Source: Blakeslea trispora (taxonomy: Eukaryota; Mucoromycota; Mucoromycetes; Mucorales; Choanephoraceae). Taken from it: a stretch of DNA of 64,000 nucleotides. Where the stretch lies: NCBI GenBank assembly GCA_025331445.1, contig JAIWNE010000138.1, forward strand, positions 1 through 64,000. Direction: 5' to 3'. Under the pieces are notes generated by a model. It made no database searches. It saw nothing but the letters and a program-made list of their open reading frames with translations, and was not told where the DNA came from. Shown here piece after piece: positions 1,033 to 41,773 of the stretch (the stretch's first letter is position 1; each line of letters starts with the position of its first letter). Position numbers and translations under genes: made by a program.

Positions 1033-4000
1033 TTAAACATTGCTTATCTTCTTGTTCAAGACACCCACAATATGAGAAAACAAACCAGGTCTCTTGTTTG
1101 TGACCTTGGTGTTAGCATTTTTCTTGCTCATGTCTTCCTGCTTTTCGTACAAATACTTTGTAATTTTCTTGTCGCCCTCTTCAAACAAAGTATGCATTTT
1201 CGTCTCGATAGATTTAGCCATCTGGCGCTTAACAATACCAGTCAATACAGGATTGAGCACCTTGTAGAGCATGCTATTATGGAACAAATAAGTAAAAGTG
1301 CTTTATATTGAAAAGATTTTCCTAAAAAAAAAGGAATCACTTACTTGTGTTTACTGTGTTTGACGTTAATAAAAAGTTTGTCAATGACACATTGGCATTG
1401 TTCAAGGCGGAATGTATGTTTCTGGTCAGCATAATTGCTAGTGACAACCATCATAAGTCTCAAGCCTTCTCCATCGGTCTATCATCATTTGAATAGAATT
1501 AATCTACATTGCTTATTACTCAACTTCACAAGATGGCTTACACGTAAAGAGACGACACCCGAGTCAGTCAATCGAGGGAAACCGCTCTTCTTCTTGTAAT
1601 AGAAAATAACATCTTCCATGACAGTTTGAATACCTGCCATATCAATATGCATTGATTGTACATTTGTATAACCCACGTTTTTGTTGGGACTAAATCTCAG
1701 GAAGTCTTGTATTTTGATTTCAAATACCTTGGGTAATAACGTATCGCCAGCCAAGAGCAGATTCTCAAGTGCAATTTCATACTGTCTGTCACTATATACT
1801 ATCTTTGGAAGAGCAATGTAATGAAACTGCTCAATCAAAGCTGGTATCAACGTGATACGTATATCGTTCAAAAGTTGTGGCTTAAATGCAGCATAACCAT
1901 TCCTGTTGACATGTCAGTGTTTGTGTATCATTAGTTGACAAAAACAAAGCATATGATGTACTGCTGTTTACTTACTTGTCATACCAAAGATGATTGTGGA
2001 TAGACCTAACGAGATTAGAGATATCTTTTGAAATAGGGTCTTCACTAATCGTATTGATAAAGTCGCTAGAGTCTCGAGCAAAAGCACTTGCTTCAGATCT
2101 GTACTGATCAAAAGTATGTTGGCGGATTTGATTAACCAAGTCTTGACCATCTTTGGTAGATTGATCAGCTTCCAAGTAATCAGGCTCTTTGAGTAATTGT
2201 TGAATATAGCTTGCTACCTATTTCATAACATAGAAAAAAAATTCATTTGTTAGTGTTATATGTCTATTATGGTTAAGCTATATCTGTTAAATTGGGCTAC
2301 CTTATTACAAAGGCTATTCAATTGATTATCTTGCCTCATCTTGTCGGCCAAATTGTTTCCTCTTTCAATGATTGGGTCGAGTGATTTCCCTTGAGCCCAG
2401 TCTTCCAAGATGGTCTTGCATTCTCGAGAAGAAGTATACAGATAATATTCGCCTTGTTCTGAGGGATCTACTGTGGATGAGCGACGACGATCAAAGCGTT
2501 GAAAGTTGTTGTTAGTTGTCAATCGCTTTCCCCAGTCACTAAACAAAGTTAAGAGAATGGATATAGCTTGCTGGTACTCGGGATTCTTTTGAATTGTAAG
2601 CATGATCTTCTTTAGCTGATCAACAACTTGAACTAAAATATCAGAATTTTCTGGCTGACCCTCGTTTGAAACTGATACATTTGCATGATCAGTTGTAGCT
2701 GAATATTTATGGACTGTGGTCTTGCCTCTAGAGGCAGTGTTATTGATAGTTTGATTATATGAAGCTTGTTCATAGTTTGTAGGTGTATTCAGATTAGCAA
2801 AGAGGCCGGCAGTAGCTGTTGCACCGCTGTAGCTTAGTCGATGATCCCTCTTGTGTCTCTTGGAAAGAGCTTCCCTAGCTTCTGCTGCATCAAAATGACC
2901 TTTGTTACTCATGCTCTGATGGTAACTATCAGTCAGATCGCCTTTGTGTTGAGTCTCGTCTTCAGAGATAGCAGGTGTGTAATCTTTACGCTTATCATAA
3001 AGAGACGATGGAGTCAGAGGTCGAACACGAATTTCGCCTACTTGAGCAGAAGGATTGGTAGCAGATGAATTTGCCAAATAGACACTAGCTTGCAGATCAT
3101 GTTGATGATGTCTATCTGAATCAAACACATTACCACCATCATCTCTGATTGGCCCGCCTTCTTCGAAATCGATGAAGCGATGATTCAAGAATTGTTGATG
3201 GGCTTGAGGAATATCATGGTGCTGATCTTGTTGCGTATAATGATGCATATCTCTTGGATCTTCCAAATCATGACCGCTGTCGTCCTTCATGAGCTTCTCT
3301 TCTTCTGAGTCAACAAAGCGATGTTGGAGAAATTGTAAATGTTTGCCCGGAAGGGGATAAACATGATCTCCTGGAAAGGAAAAAGAAATTAAAACTCAAT
3401 AGCATCTGCTTTCAAAAAATAAAGTTACCTTGATTGTCATTGGTAGAAGCTGCATGAATGTTGGGCAACTTGTTCTCTTTGAGCAATATCCCGCTTTGTT
3501 GTAATGAGCTTCCCATGACTTGTTGAGCCAAGGTCAGCATTTGGCCAAGAAGGCCTCTGAATTGAGAGTTAAACAAGAAAAGCTTGGCCAACTTTAAGAC
3601 AGCATCTGCAGCAGTCTTGAGCTGTGATTTTGGAGGCTGATTGATGAGAGCATGATGTCTGACAATCTCTTCTGATTTTCGGACGTGATAGATCATAGAC
3701 TGAAAAAGTTCGTCTCTATTTTTAGTCTTCAGAGCTGTTTGGAGTGTCATCAAGAGCTGTTGAAAGTCGTTTAAAAGCAGGACGCCATCTTCTGACATGC
3801 TTTTCTTGTTGTTTTCAATCGTGTTACTGTGCAACAAGCGATCTATGATAGAGCTCAACTGATGGTTTGTAGGTAGCTTGCCTTGTCGAAGAGAATCCAT
3901 GTTATCCAAGATAGAGGCACGCTCACTGGCAATAGAAGAGCGTCTGCGCTCCTGTGATAGTCGTCGTTCACTTTGTTCAGAGAGTCTTCTTACTGTGTTT

Positions 4001-4092
4001 TGAAGTTGAGGAGAGTCATCATCTATCTCCTTTCTTTGAGGACAGATAAATGTCGAGTCACCTCGTCCATATTGATGATAAATTGCTGCCAT
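1033..4092 (-). CDS. HAM1-like (HAM1_N / HAM1_C family) protein
   Basis: Six exons join in frame: 4092-3429, 3370-2301, 2217-1976, 1902-1542, 1478-1345 and 1273-1033, giving about 903 residues. The N-terminal part contains MDSLRQGKLPTNHQLSSIID and a helical stretch typical of the fungal HAM1-like N-terminal domain. The middle is low-complexity, rich in Asp, His and Gln. The C-terminal part (QLLNDIRITLIPALIEQFHY onward) resembles the HAM1-like C-terminal domain, thought to be related to lipid-binding (BPI/TULIP-like) folds. A short motif occurs twice near residues 235-275, QFLQHRFVDSEEE and QFLNHRFIDFEEGG. The molecular role of the family is poorly known; an association with membranes or lipids is inference. 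All introns are GT-AG and 50-85 bases long, and each join restores the frame. The next gene upstream is TRAPPC13, same strand. Confidence 0.82.
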
Positions 4093-4256
4093 ATTGTTGC
4101 TTTAGTTGTAAAGAGAAAGAGAAAGGACACTGGTATATCGCTTAAATACTTTGTTAACAATGCCCTTGTGTTTCATCATTTCGTCATGCCATTCTAATGC
4201 ATGCGAAACCTATCCACAGACAAAATGGAAGAAGAGAAATAGTTTTTTTATTATTA

Positions 4257-5642
4257 TTATTTCATTGCGTCTTCTAAGGTATCAGTAGGATGATTCAATA
4301 CAAAAATATCGCAAAGATGGTCAATATCTTTTGTATAGCCAGATAACAAATCTGTCACGCGTAGGCCACCTACACGTTGCAAACCAGGCGTCAGGGGAAA
4401 GAATTCAATTTGTGTCTCTGTAGATTGCCCTGGTCCCAGCTCGCCTAGTTGTCGACTACTTAGACCGCTCAACAAGACAGAACCCATTTTAGTCTTGATT
4501 GTATTCAACACAAGTTTCATGTTATCACTCGAATGATTCTTGACTCGAACTCCAAGCTTGAAGGGCGTCTCTAAAACTACATGAACTTCTTTCTCTTCTG
4601 ACTCCTCCTTTTCTTGTTCATCTAATTTGCTTGATACCCAAAAGGGCTTGATTTCAATTTCCTCCAACATGGGTGCCTTTCGTGTCAGTTGAGAGGTCTG
4701 TAACCGGCCTAAATCGCCCATATAAGATCGCCACACAATATCCAGTTTACCCAATGCGTTGGTGGTGCGGGAAATACGATCGTTTTGCGCGTCAAGAGGT
4801 GACAACATATAGAGATATTGACGTACATCTTGAGGATGAATAAAGTGATCCCCAAATACTGTTTCTTCCTTCTCACAACCTACAACGCCGTTCATGTCCT
4901 CAAACGTAAAATATTCAGATGGTTCAAATTTCATGCGCTCAAGAAACATTGGTCCTGCCGACACATTTTGAAGTTGCGCTTCCAAAAAGACTCGGCCATC
5001 AATCATATTATTAAGCTTTGTCTTGACAGCTAGAGGATTAGACACTTGAAATTTGTAAAATTTACGGAAATGACGCTTCTTGCCATCAGGTGCTATATAA
5101 TGCACTGAGCATACTAGAATATGAACACCTAATTCTTTGATTTCATGAGAGACTGTGGTATCATAGGTGGCCTGTATCTCTAATGTGGCCATGGGGGTCT
5201 GTGTTGTATCTGACAAGACAAATCGTTGAGAGGACGTTTGAAGCTCAATCTTGACGCCCACCTGGTGGACAGTCGAGGCTGTTTCGTTGTTGATGCTGAT
5301 GAGTGTACCAAAGTTTTCACCTAGATAGATGTTACCAAATGCAGAAGGAAGCTTAAGCATCTGACTTAGACCGAAATCTCGGATCTGAAGGTTGCCCCCT
5401 TTGCCATCGACAGGTAGTGAGGCTGTAAGGTCGGCAATATTGAGTGATTCGAGTCCTTCAACTAGAGGCGATTTGTCAGTTGATTCATAATAGATGGGTA
5501 AAGTGGTTGTGAGTTGAGGACGCGAGAGCCTCATGACTTTAAGTGAGAGTAAGTGTGGTTGTTGATCATCTTGGTTCTGTCTGTTGTTGGCAAGTCCAAT
5601 ATTACTCTGACGAGGCGAAGTAACAGTCGGTGTACTAGCCAT
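4257..5642 (-). CDS. TRAPPC13: TRAPP complex subunit 13 (TRAPPC13, DUF974 family)
   Basis: A single-exon frame of 461 residues. The start is placed at the ATG at 5642 (MASTPTV), because the 22 residues that would precede it from an upstream ATG at 5708 are not like the family. The protein shows the beta-rich TRAPPC13 fold signatures: HLLSLKVMRLSRPQL, LPSAFGNIYLGENFGTLISI, then KIELQTSSQRF and GVHILVCSVHY, followed by repeated immunoglobulin-like strands to the C-terminus. In animals TRAPPC13 is an accessory subunit of TRAPP III, the guanine-nucleotide exchange factor for Rab1 acting in ER-Golgi traffic and autophagy. Budding yeast lacks it, so its presence suggests a metazoan-like TRAPP III here. 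No splice signals are needed. Confidence 0.9.
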   Translation of the reverse strand: MASTPTVTSPRQSNIGLANNRQNQDDQQPHLLSLKVMRLSRPQLTTTLPIYYESTDKSPLVEGLESLNIADLTASLPVDGKGGNLQIRDFGLSQMLKLPSAFGNIYLGENFGTLISINNETASTVHQVGVKIELQTSSQRFVLSDTTQTPMATLEIQATYDTTVSHEIKELGVHILVCSVHYIAPDGKKRHFRKFYKFQVSNPLAVKTKLNNMIDGRVFLEAQLQNVSAGPMFLERMKFEPSEYFTFEDMNGVVGCEKEETVFGDHFIHPQDVRQYLYMLSPLDAQNDRISRTTNALGKLDIVWRSYMGDLGRLQTSQLTRKAPMLEEIEIKPFWVSSKLDEQEKEESEEKEVHVVLETPFKLGVRVKNHSSDNMKLVLNTIKTKMGSVLLSGLSSRQLGELGPGQSTETQIEFFPLTPGLQRVGGLRVTDLLSGYTKDIDHLCDIFVLNHPTDTLEDAMK

Positions 5643-6657
5643 AATAGAAGCAGAGATAAAATGTATTAAAAAAGAGTTGCTTGGTGTGACTCTCTTAGAT
5701 TGGCCCAAGTAGTGTGAGCATACTAAACTTGCGAGTATCTAAAGTTGCAATCGCTTGGCTGAGTTACAAAGTATCTTACTCGCTATGGCATTTAGTTGCA
5801 ACATTTCAATCCTGCCAGTGTCATTACTAACAATCATTCATTATCCTCAATTTAAACAGCATTCTGATGACTTGTTTGTTTGTTAACTGAATTAGTGGTA
5901 ACGCAAACGAACTTGAGAAGAACATGTTCAATAACAGTATCACCGGTCAAATTACACCTTTATGGCTGCATGAACAAATAACTGTATATGGTAATGATGA
6001 ACAACGAAATCTATTTATCGTTCGCTAATATAAAGACAAAATTAGATAAAACTCACTTTCAATTAGACAATTGTTTGCAATGGAAGAATGCCTGTCAGAA
6101 GTTGATGTAAGTACACTTCTTCATAGTTGATAGATTGCCTGAAGTTGGAGGCAAAATAAAGGCTTTCTCGGATTGAAAGTCTGCCCAAAGAAGTCAAATG
6201 CTTAACAGGAACGACTGACATAAATAAATGTCCTTTTCAATTGAAAGTAGCAGTACATACTGCTTGTGATGCATTAAAACAATGAAACACCTTTCTTTCT
6301 CTCTCTCAAGAATTCAGCAGATTGATTTTCTCCAAATTTAGAGATTTATCAAAAAGACAAGTAGCATGATTCTATAGGTGCTATTACCAAATGCCTTTAA
6401 ACAACTCAAGGAAGCAAAAAGAGCAGAGCAGAGTAGTATCCTGAAGGTCTGTGACGACTTTTACTGTTCAATACATTTCCAACTCCGGATTACGGTTTTG
6501 TATACGGCACCCACCTGTGTGTGTGTGTGTGCGTATACAGCAATGGAAAATCACATGTATCTATTGTTGATTCTTGCTTTTTTTTTTCCTTTTTCTTTCT
6601 TTCTTTATTTTTTTTTCTTTTTATCTTTTATACGTGTCTCTTTGTCTAGATATTACT
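5643..6657. promoter_or_regulatory. Divergent intergenic region between TRAPPC13 and the acyl-CoA-binding gene
   Basis: About 1 kb separating two divergently transcribed genes, so it must hold both promoters. It includes a TG microsatellite near 6519-6532 and, directly before the plus-strand ATG, a T/C-rich leader at about 6577-6645. No coding frame with supporting features was seen. Confidence 0.5.
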
Positions 6658-36514: not shown

Positions 36515-36539
36515 AGAGAGAGAGAGAGAGAGAGAGAGA
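36515..36539 (+). repeat. GA dinucleotide microsatellite
   Basis: An AG/GA run of about 12 units begins 38 bases after the p24 stop codon, in its probable 3' UTR. Confidence 0.95.
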
Positions 36540-37284
36540 AACATGAATGCATGGACTATAAGGAGCTCAATTCTTATGAATGAACATGATGAATCTATTA
36601 GCATCAGATCCATTCATATCACTTTCATGAATTTATACATTGTTCGATCTCCGACAGGGCCATTGGTTGGCGGGGCTGCTGTGTCTGGGGGCTACTCCGC
36701 CGGTAATAAGCAATACGATTGGACACTGTTAGCCAATAAAAGTTGTTATTACCGTCGCTCATTTAAGTTTTTGCTTAATGGTTTTTGAATGAGTGGGCTC
36801 AAACAGAATATTACTAAAAACTATAAAATTTTCTCTCTTCTACCAAAGAAATTCATCAAGAAAATTCCAGTGATTGCAAGCTTGTTGGACTACAAATAAG
36901 AAACGAAAGTGAGTAAGATAATCAAGCTAATGAAGTAAGCCTTGTCTCAGAAACGAAGCCAGTAACGCCCTGCAATCCTTACAAGAGCTGGATTTCGTTT
37001 AAGGAACATTATTAGAGGAGTCAATGAAAGATATGCTCTCGAGTAACATCGTTCTGTCTAAGCATTTTGAGGACCTTCTGACTTGCTTGACATAATGAAA
37101 AAAGTCCTTCTGAAAATGGAAAAGTGCCCCATTTATGGAATCAAGTTTGTGATTACAGAGTAATGTGATTATTTGGGTAAAAATCATCAGCAACATACAT
37201 TTAAAAGGTTTCAATTTTTAAAATATGAGATGTTTGTCTCACCCGAGAGTTACACAAAGAGAACAAAGAATATACAATCTATCA

Positions 37285-37293
37285 TATAAAAGG
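37285..37293 (+). promoter_or_regulatory. TATA box of the Fanzor-like gene
   Basis: TATAAAAGG, a near-consensus TATA box, lies 170 bases before the proposed ATG at 37463 and is followed by TTTCTGTTTTTCTCTTTGTC. It suggests that the gene has its own working polymerase II promoter. Confidence 0.5.
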
Positions 37294-37462
37294 CCAAAAA
37301 AAACTTGTTTCTGTTTTTCTCTTTGTCTCTATTACCTCATCTGTTAGATTCTTCTAATACATCTAATCTCTTATTGCTGGAAGGAGTAAGATATATTTTA
37401 TTCTGACCTTGATATATCTGCCCCACTAATATGCTATGAATAGATCTAATCCCTCTTAGGCA

Positions 37463-40400
37463 ATGTCCTACCGCAGGGCTCTACAAGATACATTCTATTT
37501 GGGCGGTCGTTATACTCCTGCGCCCCAGTTGTCTGTCAATGTGCAACAACAACCATCTACCATAGCTCCTGGCATGAGGCGTGCATTTGAAATGTCTGTA
37601 GAAGAATTCCATGACCTGTTTTATATCGTAGCCCAAGCCAAGCTACGCGATAACATTATCCGTGAAAAAAACAAAAAGAAGCCAAACTACTCTGCTCTCA
37701 AAGCCAAAACTCTTGCTGGTCAAATTCCAAGAGGACTGTATGCTGATATGGATAAACATGCTAACCTCGGTTTGCGAGAATCTGCAAACAGATTTCAAAA
37801 TGATAATTCAGTGTCTCGAGCAATTGATCTTTGGAGAAGATATGTACAACAAAATTTTGATGTCGTCCAAGAGTCTGTAAGCAATCCTACTACTGAAGCA
37901 ACTAGCTCTACTCAAGCCATTGAACCTTCTTCAGAAGAGCTCCCTACCGAACCTGCTTCCTTTGTTGTTACCGAAGAATATTTTGAAGTCTGTACTGCGT
38001 ATTTTCCCTCGTTGATACGAGATGATCTTACACCTGAAGTTAGACAACTCTTTGATACTAAGCTTGCTGAACTACTGCCTCAGACCTCCAACTTTATCAG
38101 TGACTTTCAAACAATCATGTTTATGATAATGTCCTGTTTCCGAAGCCATACTTTTGCTGTTCGCAATGGAAAATCAGTATTTTGATAGATCAAATGGCTT
38201 TCAAATACAAAGCATCTTCCCAAGTAACTTTCAGCTACAAGATACCTTGATTTTTTCTGCCTCTCCATATGCTTCCAACTTTCTTGCCTCTCCTGATGCT
38301 AATGACATTCCTTTTCTCTTCACTGACCGACATATTTATTTTTTGAAGTCTGGTTTTTATGGTGTTCGTGGCTTGCAAACAAAGACCAAAACAGATTATC
38401 CTTTGAGAACCCTGTTAATGGAAGCCATCTCTGACTCAGTCAGCCAATTCATCCAACCAAAAAACACTCTTCATATGGCCTGCTATGAGTCTGCACTGAC
38501 TAACTATATTACCAATCTATCTGTCATGTGGGGTGATAACAAGATGATCAACATTCTTCTAGACAAGCTTTTGTTAGTGTTGCTACGTATTCATTTGGCT
38601 CCTACAAGAGAAAAAAAGCATCAAGAATATATCAAGTCTATGAAAAGTGCCTCTAAAGAAAGAAAAGACGAAGCTGCAAAAGGAAGTAAGACAGAAGCAG
38701 GTCATCCTACCAACTGGTTTCCACTGCTCCATCAAAGCAGAAGAAGGTTAATAGTCCGCAAAGAACGTTACCGGCTTGCAAAATACAGACAAAAATCAAA
38801 AAGCTCATCATCTGCGTATATGAAGCAAAAATGGGAAGCTCGAGCCCAAAAAAGTGAGGAACGTGTCGCAACATACACAAAAGCTCTGGAAACTAAGGTA
38901 TGTATGTCTACAATCAACGGGAAATCAGTCACTCATCTATGTCTATTATACCATTTTCAATAGGAACCCAAAACTACTTCTGCCAAGAGAAAACAACCTT
39001 CTGAGCCTGATGTCGCCGAAGGTTCTGAGCGTCCAAGAAAGATCCCTGCTATCCAACATCCCTCTACTGCTTCTGCTGAGGCTGGTCCCAGTATGCTACA
39101 TACTAGTCGCATGGAGTTAGATATTCCCACACAGCCCTACGAAGGAAAAGGGAAAGCGCCAATGAATCCCCAAAGCGATCCGAAACCTGTTACTTTCCAA
39201 CCACCCATGACAGAAGAGACACGCACTATTCCGCCTGCTACACCAGAAGACTACGCAAGCATGGATGAAAATGATGTTGTCGAAGAAGAGGATGCTTTAA
39301 AAGATGCTGATGATGATGCTCCTAGACACAGGTTGAATGGCTTAAAAGGCTTTATCAAGAGCTTGCTGTTGCGTGATGAAGATTTGCCTAACGAACAAGA
39401 CTTGAGAGGTCTGCGCTCTGACTTGAATGAGAAGGAAGCAGAAGTGTGTTTGCTTATACTACGACGCTTAAAACCTTACATCCCTTCAAAGAAAAACTAC
39501 TCTCATATTGGCTACCAGCTACCTTTTGTAATTCTTGCGAATGATTTGCTGCGCTGTGCTGGCTATGCTAAGTTCTGTCGTAAAATCTGCCCAATGCCTG
39601 TTGCATCTCAAAAGTCCTTTAGACTGGATACACCTTCGTTATTTAAGACATTCTGCGAGCATGGTGACAACAAAATGACATTTTTTGGCTATGACAACAG
39701 AGTCATTAGGGGCCCTTTGGAATACATCAATCATAAGGATGCTGTCTTCAATGCCTTTTTCAAGATTGATAGAATACAACAGTTATGCAGACGTCGTAAA
39801 TTGGTTTTTGCTCATCATCTTCATTTGCTGCCTGGTGGAAAGTATGTCAGAATCCTTGGTATCAAAGAGAAAGCGCCCATGAAGCAGACTGCTGATGTAA
39901 CAGGCCAAAAGCGTCAATACAACATTCCTGAATCGACTTGGCAAGATATTCTCAATGAGCGTGAAAAAGACAATGAAACCTTGAGACAAGAAGTCGATGA
40001 ACTCTTGGGGAACACCAACCGTTTGTCAAAGCAGCTGAAAACCAGATTTAAAGAATTCAGCAATCAAGATTTTAGTTTGCAGATCAAAACTGCCAAGCAA
40101 GGCTGGAAAAACCCAATTAATCTAGAACCTGAAGTTGCTGTTGTGCAGGGTAGTGATTCTGAAGAAGAGGCAGGTGTATGTTGTCCTCAAATTGGTGAAT
40201 GTATGACTGGTGTTCAGAGACGAATTGCAGACATTGTCAGAACTATACAAGCTCGTATCCGACGTCCGCATGCCAACAATGATGAAGAGTTGATTACTGC
40301 TGCTAGAAATGAGATCAAGGTGTACATTGATGGGTTGAAGGCTGATAGAAGTAGGTTGTTTCTGGCTATTCAACAAGTCAAGTCTGAACTGGCAGACCAG

Positions 40401-41543
40401 CGATACCAGCTGTATATCCGCAGAAGAGCATTAAATTTGACAAAAAGAGATCAAAAAGCGCCCAGACAGACTAGAGAACTGCAGCAGATTACGGGCCAGT
40501 CTACGATTGCTAAAGCTGAAGATATGCAACTGATGGGTGACGCTGATACTATTGCTAAAAATTTTACCTTCTCTGGCACAGACAATGGTGTTGTCAAAAT
40601 GACTGAATCAGTGCCCGTTTCTATTCAAAGATACACTTACCATCTGAAGCTCTACAACAGGTTTTCTGCTTTGACTACTACTGAAGAACAAGAAGAAGAA
40701 TTTCAGCCTTTGCCGTCGTCCACTGTCATCAACGCTGAAGACATTGACTTTGGAAGCCAAAACTTGAACTACAGACACAAGCTTGCTGCTAAAAAGGCAA
40801 ATGATGTGAATTTGATTGAAGCTGAGAAGGTGTTGTCCGAAAAAAGTTTATCCAATGCAAGTTCCGTAGAAGCAATCCAGACAAACTATCATTTTTTGCA
40901 AGCCAATAGACAGACAGTCAGGAACTTTTATGATTCTCCACAAAGATCTAAACAGGCCATGAAGCAGGAATACTTTACCAAAAAAATCAAGGACCGCCTT
41001 TGCTCTCGCGAAAGGGAATTCACGAATCCTAAACCGAAAAAGAAAGATGTCAAGAAGAAAGGAAAAGAAATACAAAGAAAGAACCTGTTGATGATGATTG
41101 GTGATCGTGGCTTTGGGATAGGTTCCAGAATTAGAGGACATCTTAGATATGGTGGTATTTGGAAACAAGATCGGCATGCAAGGTATACGACTGTCTGTAT
41201 AACAAACGAAAACTATACTTCCCAGACTTGTGTGTATTGCTTCAACAAGCTCACTCATGCAAGATCGCGCATTATCAAACAAGACAAAATAACTTATAGA
41301 GAAATCAAAGGTACCTTTATCTGCTATAATTCCAAGTGCCCTTCTGCTCGTCACGGTCGTAACACAACCTCCAGAGATAAAGTGTCTGCCCTTGCTATTG
41401 CCATCTCCGGAATGACAACTTTGCTCTTCCAAGAAACTCTCCCTGTATTTTCAAGAACCATCAGTCACTCCAACACTGAACTGCACAACAAAACAGCATC
41501 CTTCTGTACAAGAAGCGGTGTATTGGCTGCACGCGAAGCGTGA
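37463..41543 (+). CDS. Fanzor-like (eukaryotic TnpB-type) RNA-guided nuclease candidate, frame broken once
   Basis: The gene covers 37463-38897 and, after an in-frame GTATGT...AATAG intron, 38964-41543 (about 1337 residues if the frame break is bridged). The C-terminal part has a RuvC-like layout. A first Asp lies in FSGTDNGVVKMT (codon 40581). Helices with YHFLQANRQTVRNFY and a MMIGDRGFG strand follow. NENYTSQTCVYC (Glu codon 41208) begins a zinc ribbon closed by CYNSKC, and then SRDKVSALAIA carries the last Asp (codon 41376). This is the order found in Fanzor/TnpB nucleases. The roughly 1000 residues before it are far longer than usual; they include a coiled coil (ESTWQDILNEREKDNETLRQ) and no known domain. 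At 38177-38185 frame 1 meets TGA-TAG after GTA TTT, while the +1 frame continues openly. Causes could be a real indel, a homopolymer sequencing error, +1 frameshifting or a weak intron. Confidence 0.75.
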
Positions 41544-41575
41544 TAAGCAAGGTTGTAAGTGTTACACAAACTCTA
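41495..41575 (+). ncRNA. Candidate guide-RNA (omega/fRNA) scaffold region
   Basis: TnpB and Fanzor guide RNAs are made from the 3' end of the nuclease gene. Here two hairpins fall in 42 bases overlapping the stop codon: CTTCT-GTACA-AGAAG at 41501-41515 and CACGC-GAA-GCGTG at 41530-41542. A weaker GTG-TTA-CAC follows at 41559-41567. This is position plus structure only; no transcript evidence exists. Confidence 0.2.
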
Positions 41576-41773
41576 ATTGCTTTAAATTGCTAAACCTTCT
41601 CTCTCTCCCCCAGACATGACAGCCTTGCCCATTGGTTGTTTTTTTTTGCACTCTTTTATTTTTATTTTATTTTCTTATTTGTTTGCAATAAAAGTGGAGA
41701 AAGAGGAAGCTAGTGCTTTCCCTCGCTTTAAAAGTAACGATAATAATAATAGAAGAGAGAAAGAGATTCCATT

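Follow-up and report, generated by a model that had tools for sequence, protein, structure and literature searches.

Why should a gene with the marks of an RNA-guided nuclease stand between two host genes in a fungal genome? Blakeslea trispora, an industrially grown fungus, raises this question in the first 64,000 nucleotides of contig JAIWNE010000138.1 (assembly GCA_025331445.1), the stretch called the window here, which belongs to C44 among the 285 contigs (37.2 Mb) that were searched. A first-pass annotation had interpreted positions 37463-41543 as a recently inserted or domesticated nuclease gene of the TnpB/Fanzor kind, an interpretation that our analysis partly supports. We suspect, at a probability of roughly 0.7, that the locus is a frameshifted member of a non-autonomous DNA transposon family, recently active and with Merlin-like ends, whose only recognised gene encodes a large Fanzor-type nuclease. 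The annotated span holds for the gene, whereas the whole element is larger and covers 36669-41629 on the plus strand (4,961 bp), with boundaries common to most other full copies.

The transposon is defined by its ends. Imperfect terminal inverted repeats (TIRs) beginning with 5'-GG lie at 36669-36691 and, on the minus strand, at 41607-41629 (78% complementary), and the element is bracketed by identical copies of an 8-bp target site duplication, CATTGGTT, at 36661-36668 and 41630-41637. A terminus pattern allowing at most one mismatch has 144 matches in the genome, and its reversed control has none. From 100 listed termini 31 pairs could be formed. Of these, 28 exceed 2.5 kb, and in every one of the 28 the Fanzor-like gene is represented, sometimes only by a piece. 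Among 26 end pairs, 17 have a perfect duplication, three have one that agrees at seven of eight positions and one at six of eight, and five have none; four more short end pairs have three perfect duplications and one imperfect. Where the duplication is absent, L034 and L040 have the same right flank as L036, L037 has the same left flank as L031, and each flanking 8-mer at C113 equals one at the element of another contig, which suggests recombination or mis-assembly. The flanks at C262 have no such explanation. The full 816-residue query is matched by twelve copies, 96-100% identical to it and in three cases interrupted by an internal stop, and the transposon is recently active, with many recent, nearly identical insertions.

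These results separate the two halves of the earlier proposal: recent insertion stands, in the form of a recently active transposon, and domestication falls. The placement of the open reading frames (ORFs) between two host genes would fit domestication at a conserved locus; the upstream neighbour is p24 (emp24/GOLD family; PF01105, E 1.2e-23), and the conserved large gene downstream is UNC80-like (PF20262, E 4.6e-30). This reading is nevertheless contradicted by the multicopy transposon, the target duplication and the frameshifted copy, and we consider it almost certainly wrong. A viral origin, prompted by the name p24, was also rejected: p24 is here an emp24/GOLD protein, an Rpb1-type polymerase gene is nearby, and the genome is one of 37 Mb. 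A (GA)n run at 36515-36540 lies directly downstream of the p24 gene.

The identity of the cargo rests on its C-terminal part. The four motifs that had drawn attention to the locus (FSGTDNGVV, YTSQTCVYC, CYNSKC and SRDKVSALAIA) all lie within a single ORF at 39093-41543, and they are not products of chance, as the catalytic residues are conserved when 30 members of the family, which occurs across Mucorales, are aligned. On the plus strand, the codon of the first catalytic Asp (in GTDNG) is at 40581-40583 and that of the alternative catalytic Glu (in TNENYTS) at 41208-41210, each kept in 26 of the 27 rows with a letter in that column, and the codon of the third residue, Asp (in SRD), is at 41376-41378, kept in 22 of 25. 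A zinc ribbon of the form CxxC ... CxxxxC, placed by the family alignment, spans 41229-41339. The Fanzor/TnpB motif of Bao and Jurka is D-X(125,275)-[TS][TS]XX-[C4]-X(5,50)-RD (PMC3627910; for this and the other articles cited below, statements refer to their accessible parts). The window protein fits it, with 211 residues from D to TS, a CxxC/CxxxxC ribbon and 11 residues between the last Cys and RD; across alignment rows with letters the first gap ranges from 157 to 285, so that the largest exceed the motif's 275. A hallmark described for Fanzors, the alternative catalytic Glu in ExxxxxxCxxC, appears as ENYTSQTCVYC, with six residues separating the Glu from the first ribbon Cys.

Structure prediction, one of the checks proposed for the locus, agrees with these residues. 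A model of 739 aa built from the alignment of 30 sequences has a predicted RuvC and zinc-ribbon fold in residues 394-712 (40503-41459, plus strand; coordinates converted by hand), and in a fold search this RuvC-TNB region is closest to solved Fanzor1 proteins, with Spizellomyces Fanzor1 (SpuFz1) the best match; the search says little about the part of the model upstream of residue 387. An earlier 859-aa model from 12 sequences had a mean predicted local distance difference test (pLDDT) score of 49.8. A library of viral folds gave 20 matches to the nuclease model at E <= 0.001, as expected because large DNA viruses also carry Fanzor-type proteins. The other proposed check, by family profiles, failed to recognise the protein: the Pfam and NCBIfam libraries gave no convincing match, PF07282 (Cas12f1-like TNB) had none above its curated cut-off in the window protein and a single marginal one (E 0.098) among the 30 family members, phmmer of the protein against PDB returned nothing, and a nine-sequence profile searched against PDB found only unrelated proteins. 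Pfam-style searches can therefore miss a family of large Fanzor-type nucleases.

The gene is split by a predicted intron of 66 bp (38898-38963, GTATGT...CAATAG). Exon 1 (37463-38897) encodes 478 aa in intact copies, according to copy alignment and translation, and exon 2 (38964-41543 including the stop codon; 859 aa) holds the nuclease region, all on the plus strand. In the window copy a one-base frameshift, common to two further copies, interrupts exon 1 between ORFs of 240 and 269 aa. Thirteen copies with both exact ends were examined, two of which were left unscored as their landmarks were not found. Three (L030, L031 and L035) read through to a product of 1,337 aa, about twice the usual Fz1 length (typically 600-700 aa, in the accessible text), and eight end prematurely, including the window copy and L033, which is only 31 codons short. 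It is conceivable, given that eight of the 11 scored copies end early and that some full-query copies contain internal stops, that the gene is a decayed passenger without current function, hitch-hiking on the termini. We find this improbable, since intact copies persist, catalytic residues are kept in relatives of other genera, and selection between two subfamilies, considered next, is strong.

The second subfamily in the genome has about 51% identity to the query. Its left end tells a different story from its coding sequence: the left 372 bp of one copy, assembled from one contig, are 92.7% identical to the window element, and the left ~370 bp of the second subfamily show 98-99% identity in five further DNA matches. 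Near-identical left ends in the two subfamilies point to an exchange of ends. For exon 2, one copy from each subfamily was taken; the two are 50% identical in amino acids, with a synonymous identity of 49%, and this comparison of coding sequences shows divergence under strong purifying selection, with the nuclease residues kept.

At the 3' end of the gene, in contrast to these averages, the two subfamily copies agree at every synonymous position of the last 30 codons (23 of 23), share the last 17 codons exactly and diverge little in the 3' flank. Known Fanzor loci have their guide RNA between the stop codon and the right repeat, and in GtFz1 the guide RNA overlaps the last 17 codons (PMC10432273). 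The 3' codons and flank of the Blakeslea gene are conserved at the nucleotide level, the pattern expected if a guide-RNA scaffold overlapped them. The candidate scaffold runs from 41490 to 41629 (plus strand), taking in the last 17 codons, the stop codon and the 3' flank to the element end. It includes a predicted hairpin, CACGC-GAA-GCGTG, at the stop codon (41530-41542) and an inverted subterminal copy of the right-end repeat (41547-41563) that is predicted to pair with the right repeat. With a scaffold ending where the element ends, the right copy of the target duplication would form the start of the guide. We found no earlier description of such nucleotide-level conservation; this and the other literature searches reported here covered mostly the open literature, supplements aside.

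Short deletion derivatives indicate which parts of the element are retained. All nine that were fetched keep the left block of 432 bp (36669-37100, plus strand, upstream of the coding start), whose first 150 nt contain predicted plus-strand hairpins (fold z -3.0). Five also keep the last 247-254 bp, two keep part of the right block, and one shows the left block only, within the stretch fetched.

The insertion sites of the family share a motif. We collected 56 left flanks and removed four duplicates; in the 52 unique sites, positions -26 to -16 read TTnAAAnYCCG. In the window the left-flank logo places this motif, TTCGATCTCCG, at 36643-36653 on the plus strand, 15 nt from the element, and the general layout is the motif, 7 nt, the 8-bp duplication and then the left end; the duplication sequence itself has no strong base preference. 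Each T agrees in 46 of 52 sites, the C, C and G in 42, 42 and 44, and a complete CCG is present in 35. The pattern TTNRNNNNCCG stands at the exact motif place in 29 of the 52 sites, whereas the background has it 18 times in 116,000 positions; it was framed after inspection of the logo, and its background comparison is independent of the logo. A position matrix scores best at -26 in 45 of 52 sites, a figure that is partly circular because the matrix was built from the sites scored. A mirrored CGG occurs in 0 of 20 right flanks. Taken with the pattern at its exact place, this lack of a mirrored signal indicates that insertion is oriented and offset. The motif is not a classical target-adjacent motif (TAM), as its geometry does not fit, and a reading as a tRNA B-box was dropped by eye, the invariant B-box positions being unconserved. 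The TAM of SpuFz1 is CATA; with the motif 15 nt away and not beside the expected guide, the logic of that system is not simply transferable. No published description of an oriented distant TTnAAAnYCCG motif was found.

Such a motif may serve the transposase, a host tether or the N-terminal part of the large protein. The first two are the options contained in our preferred explanation. In the tether version, a putative host DNA-binding protein sits on TTnAAAnYCCG and holds the transposase there, and the Fanzor-like gene would be irrelevant to target choice; this is compatible with the remainder of the explanation, and we would put it at somewhat less than even odds. There is a precedent in fission yeast, where binding of Sap1 predicts Tf1 insertion in an orientation-dependent manner (PMC5371812), and the window copy ends 144 bp upstream of the first ATG of the next ORF. 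In the third version the Fanzor-type protein would itself be the selector, its N-terminal part reading the motif and recruiting a trans-acting transposase in one orientation. The fixed offset and orientation would suit this, as would the gene or a piece of it in all 28 long listed pairs and the near-doubled length of the intact protein, and the REC and WED domains of Fz1 are established, in the accessible text, as recognising the TAM. However, the nuclease residues are conserved, unlike those of a dead targeting effector, and short derivatives that lack the gene also show the motif, with CCG in place in three of six paired ones, and the protein could then work only in trans. We think this version unlikely. 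If it were true, the family would be a eukaryotic counterpart of RNA- or protein-guided targeted transposition in which the nuclease has been retained.

The transposase itself is probably encoded elsewhere. By a position check confined to three superfamilies, no hAT, Merlin or MULE domain lies inside the 31 listed pairs. This absence, together with the gene's presence in all 28 long pairs, could suggest that the Fanzor-like protein is the transposase, with its RuvC domain performing strand transfer. RuvC nucleases of such fold are not known to carry out staggered strand transfer, and the genome holds transposases of suitable superfamilies. TnpB also appears dispensable for IS200/605 and IS607 transposition (PMC3627910), and we consider a Fanzor-like transposase very unlikely. 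A transposase carried by the larger copies on C201 and C277 was also considered and rejected, as the frames there were read as nested insertions. At L109 (C201:139900-146020) the nested insertion occupies 1806-6071, about 40 bp from the left end of an element copy, and contains a 957-aa frame resembling Transposase_21, with an E-value of 0.002 that falls short of the curated cut-off. At L110 (C277:94900-101560) nested frames at 1593-5477 look by eye like a reverse transcriptase and a recombinase, as in DIRS-like elements. In these two contigs nested elements appear to account for the size of the larger pairs; pairs on C11, C57 and at C1:653732 also have extra length.

Merlin elements are marked by 5'-GG termini and 8-bp duplications (8 or 9 bp; PMC8101967). 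The Blakeslea element has both the 5'-GG termini and the 8-bp duplication, and the genome contains 23 matches to the Merlin-type (DDE_Tnp_IS1595) transposase domain. In the scenario that we favour, a transposase encoded elsewhere, most likely of Merlin type, would cut and paste both the element and its short derivatives, and either this transposase or a host DNA-binding protein would recognise TTnAAAnYCCG. A guide RNA may be read across the right end, with the 3' stretch as its scaffold. The nuclease and guide would then cut the element-free site, and repair from the occupied copy would preserve or spread the transposon, a mechanism likewise proposed for TnpB.

Several observations weigh against parts of this scenario. 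None of the 23 Merlin-type matches is on a contig with a listed terminal pair, and duplications of 8 bp are on record for an IS4-type algal-virus Fanzor1 element as well (PMC3627910), so the ends may be of IS4-type rather than Merlin-type origin. The predicted fold at the right end is weak and barely exceeds chance (z -1.45, equalled by 11 of 200 shuffles), its stem shows 0 two-sided compensatory changes in 10 rows with 10 of 300 cells broken, and Rfam gave nothing above threshold, the two matches far below gathering scores being dismissed. Recombination between subfamilies, evident at the left end, could also explain the conserved right end. The 470-bp derivative L117 keeps only the last 27 bp, lacks the candidate scaffold and has a perfect duplication, and no conserved motif abuts a guide that would start at the element end, where positions -12 to -1 reach at most 0.19 bit. 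As for the nuclease, in the same fold search PpFz1 (13.8 and 11.7) and GtFz1 (10.9) fall amid Cas12 rows (Cas12j 13.0), so that only SpuFz1 stands clear. At RuvC-I the protein has DNG (N in 26 of 27 rows), not the DPG described as near-exclusive to Fanzors, though not defining. SpuFz1, whose metal ligands include D383 and N385, seems to depart from DPG too, as N385 puts an N at +2. Because DNG stands in place of DPG, we use the name Fanzor-type, nearest Fanzor1, without a formal clade claim.

How much of this is already known? The element is, like carriers of Fanzor1, a eukaryotic TIR transposon other than IS607. The protein resembles Fanzor1 (SpuFz1, PpFz1 and GtFz1) in its RuvC and zinc-ribbon fold, nearest SpuFz1, in its alternative Glu six residues ahead of the first ribbon Cys and in the RD of its third residue, and it shares CxxxxC as the second ribbon half with SpuFz1 and GtFz1. 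SpuFz1 also resides in a single-gene TIR element with short derivatives, there called ghost loci (PMC10432273). It differs from Fanzor1 in length (1,337 against 600-700 aa) and in reading DNG for DPG; similarity in sequence is very low, and a motif beside the expected guide is lacking. Among related fungi, Bao and Jurka reported in 2013 Fanzor1 families from Mucor, Rhizopus and Phycomyces (MCi, ROr and PBl), some of them in transposase-less TIR elements with 9-bp target duplications (PMC3627910). The Blakeslea family may be among these named families, with which it was compared by description only; those described in the accessible part of that article have duplications of 9 bp (MuDR-like), 11-12 bp or 6 bp, unlike ours, and it mentions no distant target motif with a fixed orientation. 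With Mucorales Fanzor1 reported in 2013 and SpuFz1 TIR elements likewise, the kind is already known. We found no published description of a protein of this size, of Merlin-like ends on a Fanzor element or of the oriented distant motif. Merlin and IS1595 elements share the 5'-GG termini and 8-bp duplications, and Merlin-type transposase domains are present in the genome, but no transposase is recognised in the element itself. CRISPR-associated transposons, which have a catalytically dead effector and a co-encoded transposase, likewise insert at a set distance and in one orientation relative to a sequence that is recognised, an analogy of working only: here no guide-matched target is visible at the insertion sites, sequences downstream of the motif sharing nothing, the nuclease residues are kept, none of the three transposase domains is present in the 31 pairs, and the host is eukaryotic.

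Further relatives are present in the same genome. Searching with a metagenome relative turned up a third subfamily, which is more diverged and is represented at C46:253856, C247:125657, C284:107673, C264:536296 and C279:63381. Separate PF07282-positive fragments comprise 10 matches, six above the cut-off and four of the 10 with internal stop codons (C1:618090, C20:33602, C233:102916, C13:12014 and six others). Two PF07282-positive loci, L001 and L002, have a Fanzor-like ribbon, for example VDEYLTSQICNK. These fragments apparently belong to a second, older Fanzor-type lineage.

The role of Fanzor in eukaryotic transposons is an open question, and this family is a good system in which to ask it, since its ends are defined, its gene occurs in both broken and intact form, short derivatives exist and the oriented motif is sharp. 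Here a Fanzor-type gene sits in an element that chooses its targets at a fixed offset, an arrangement that is testable with one protein, one transposase and an 11-bp motif.

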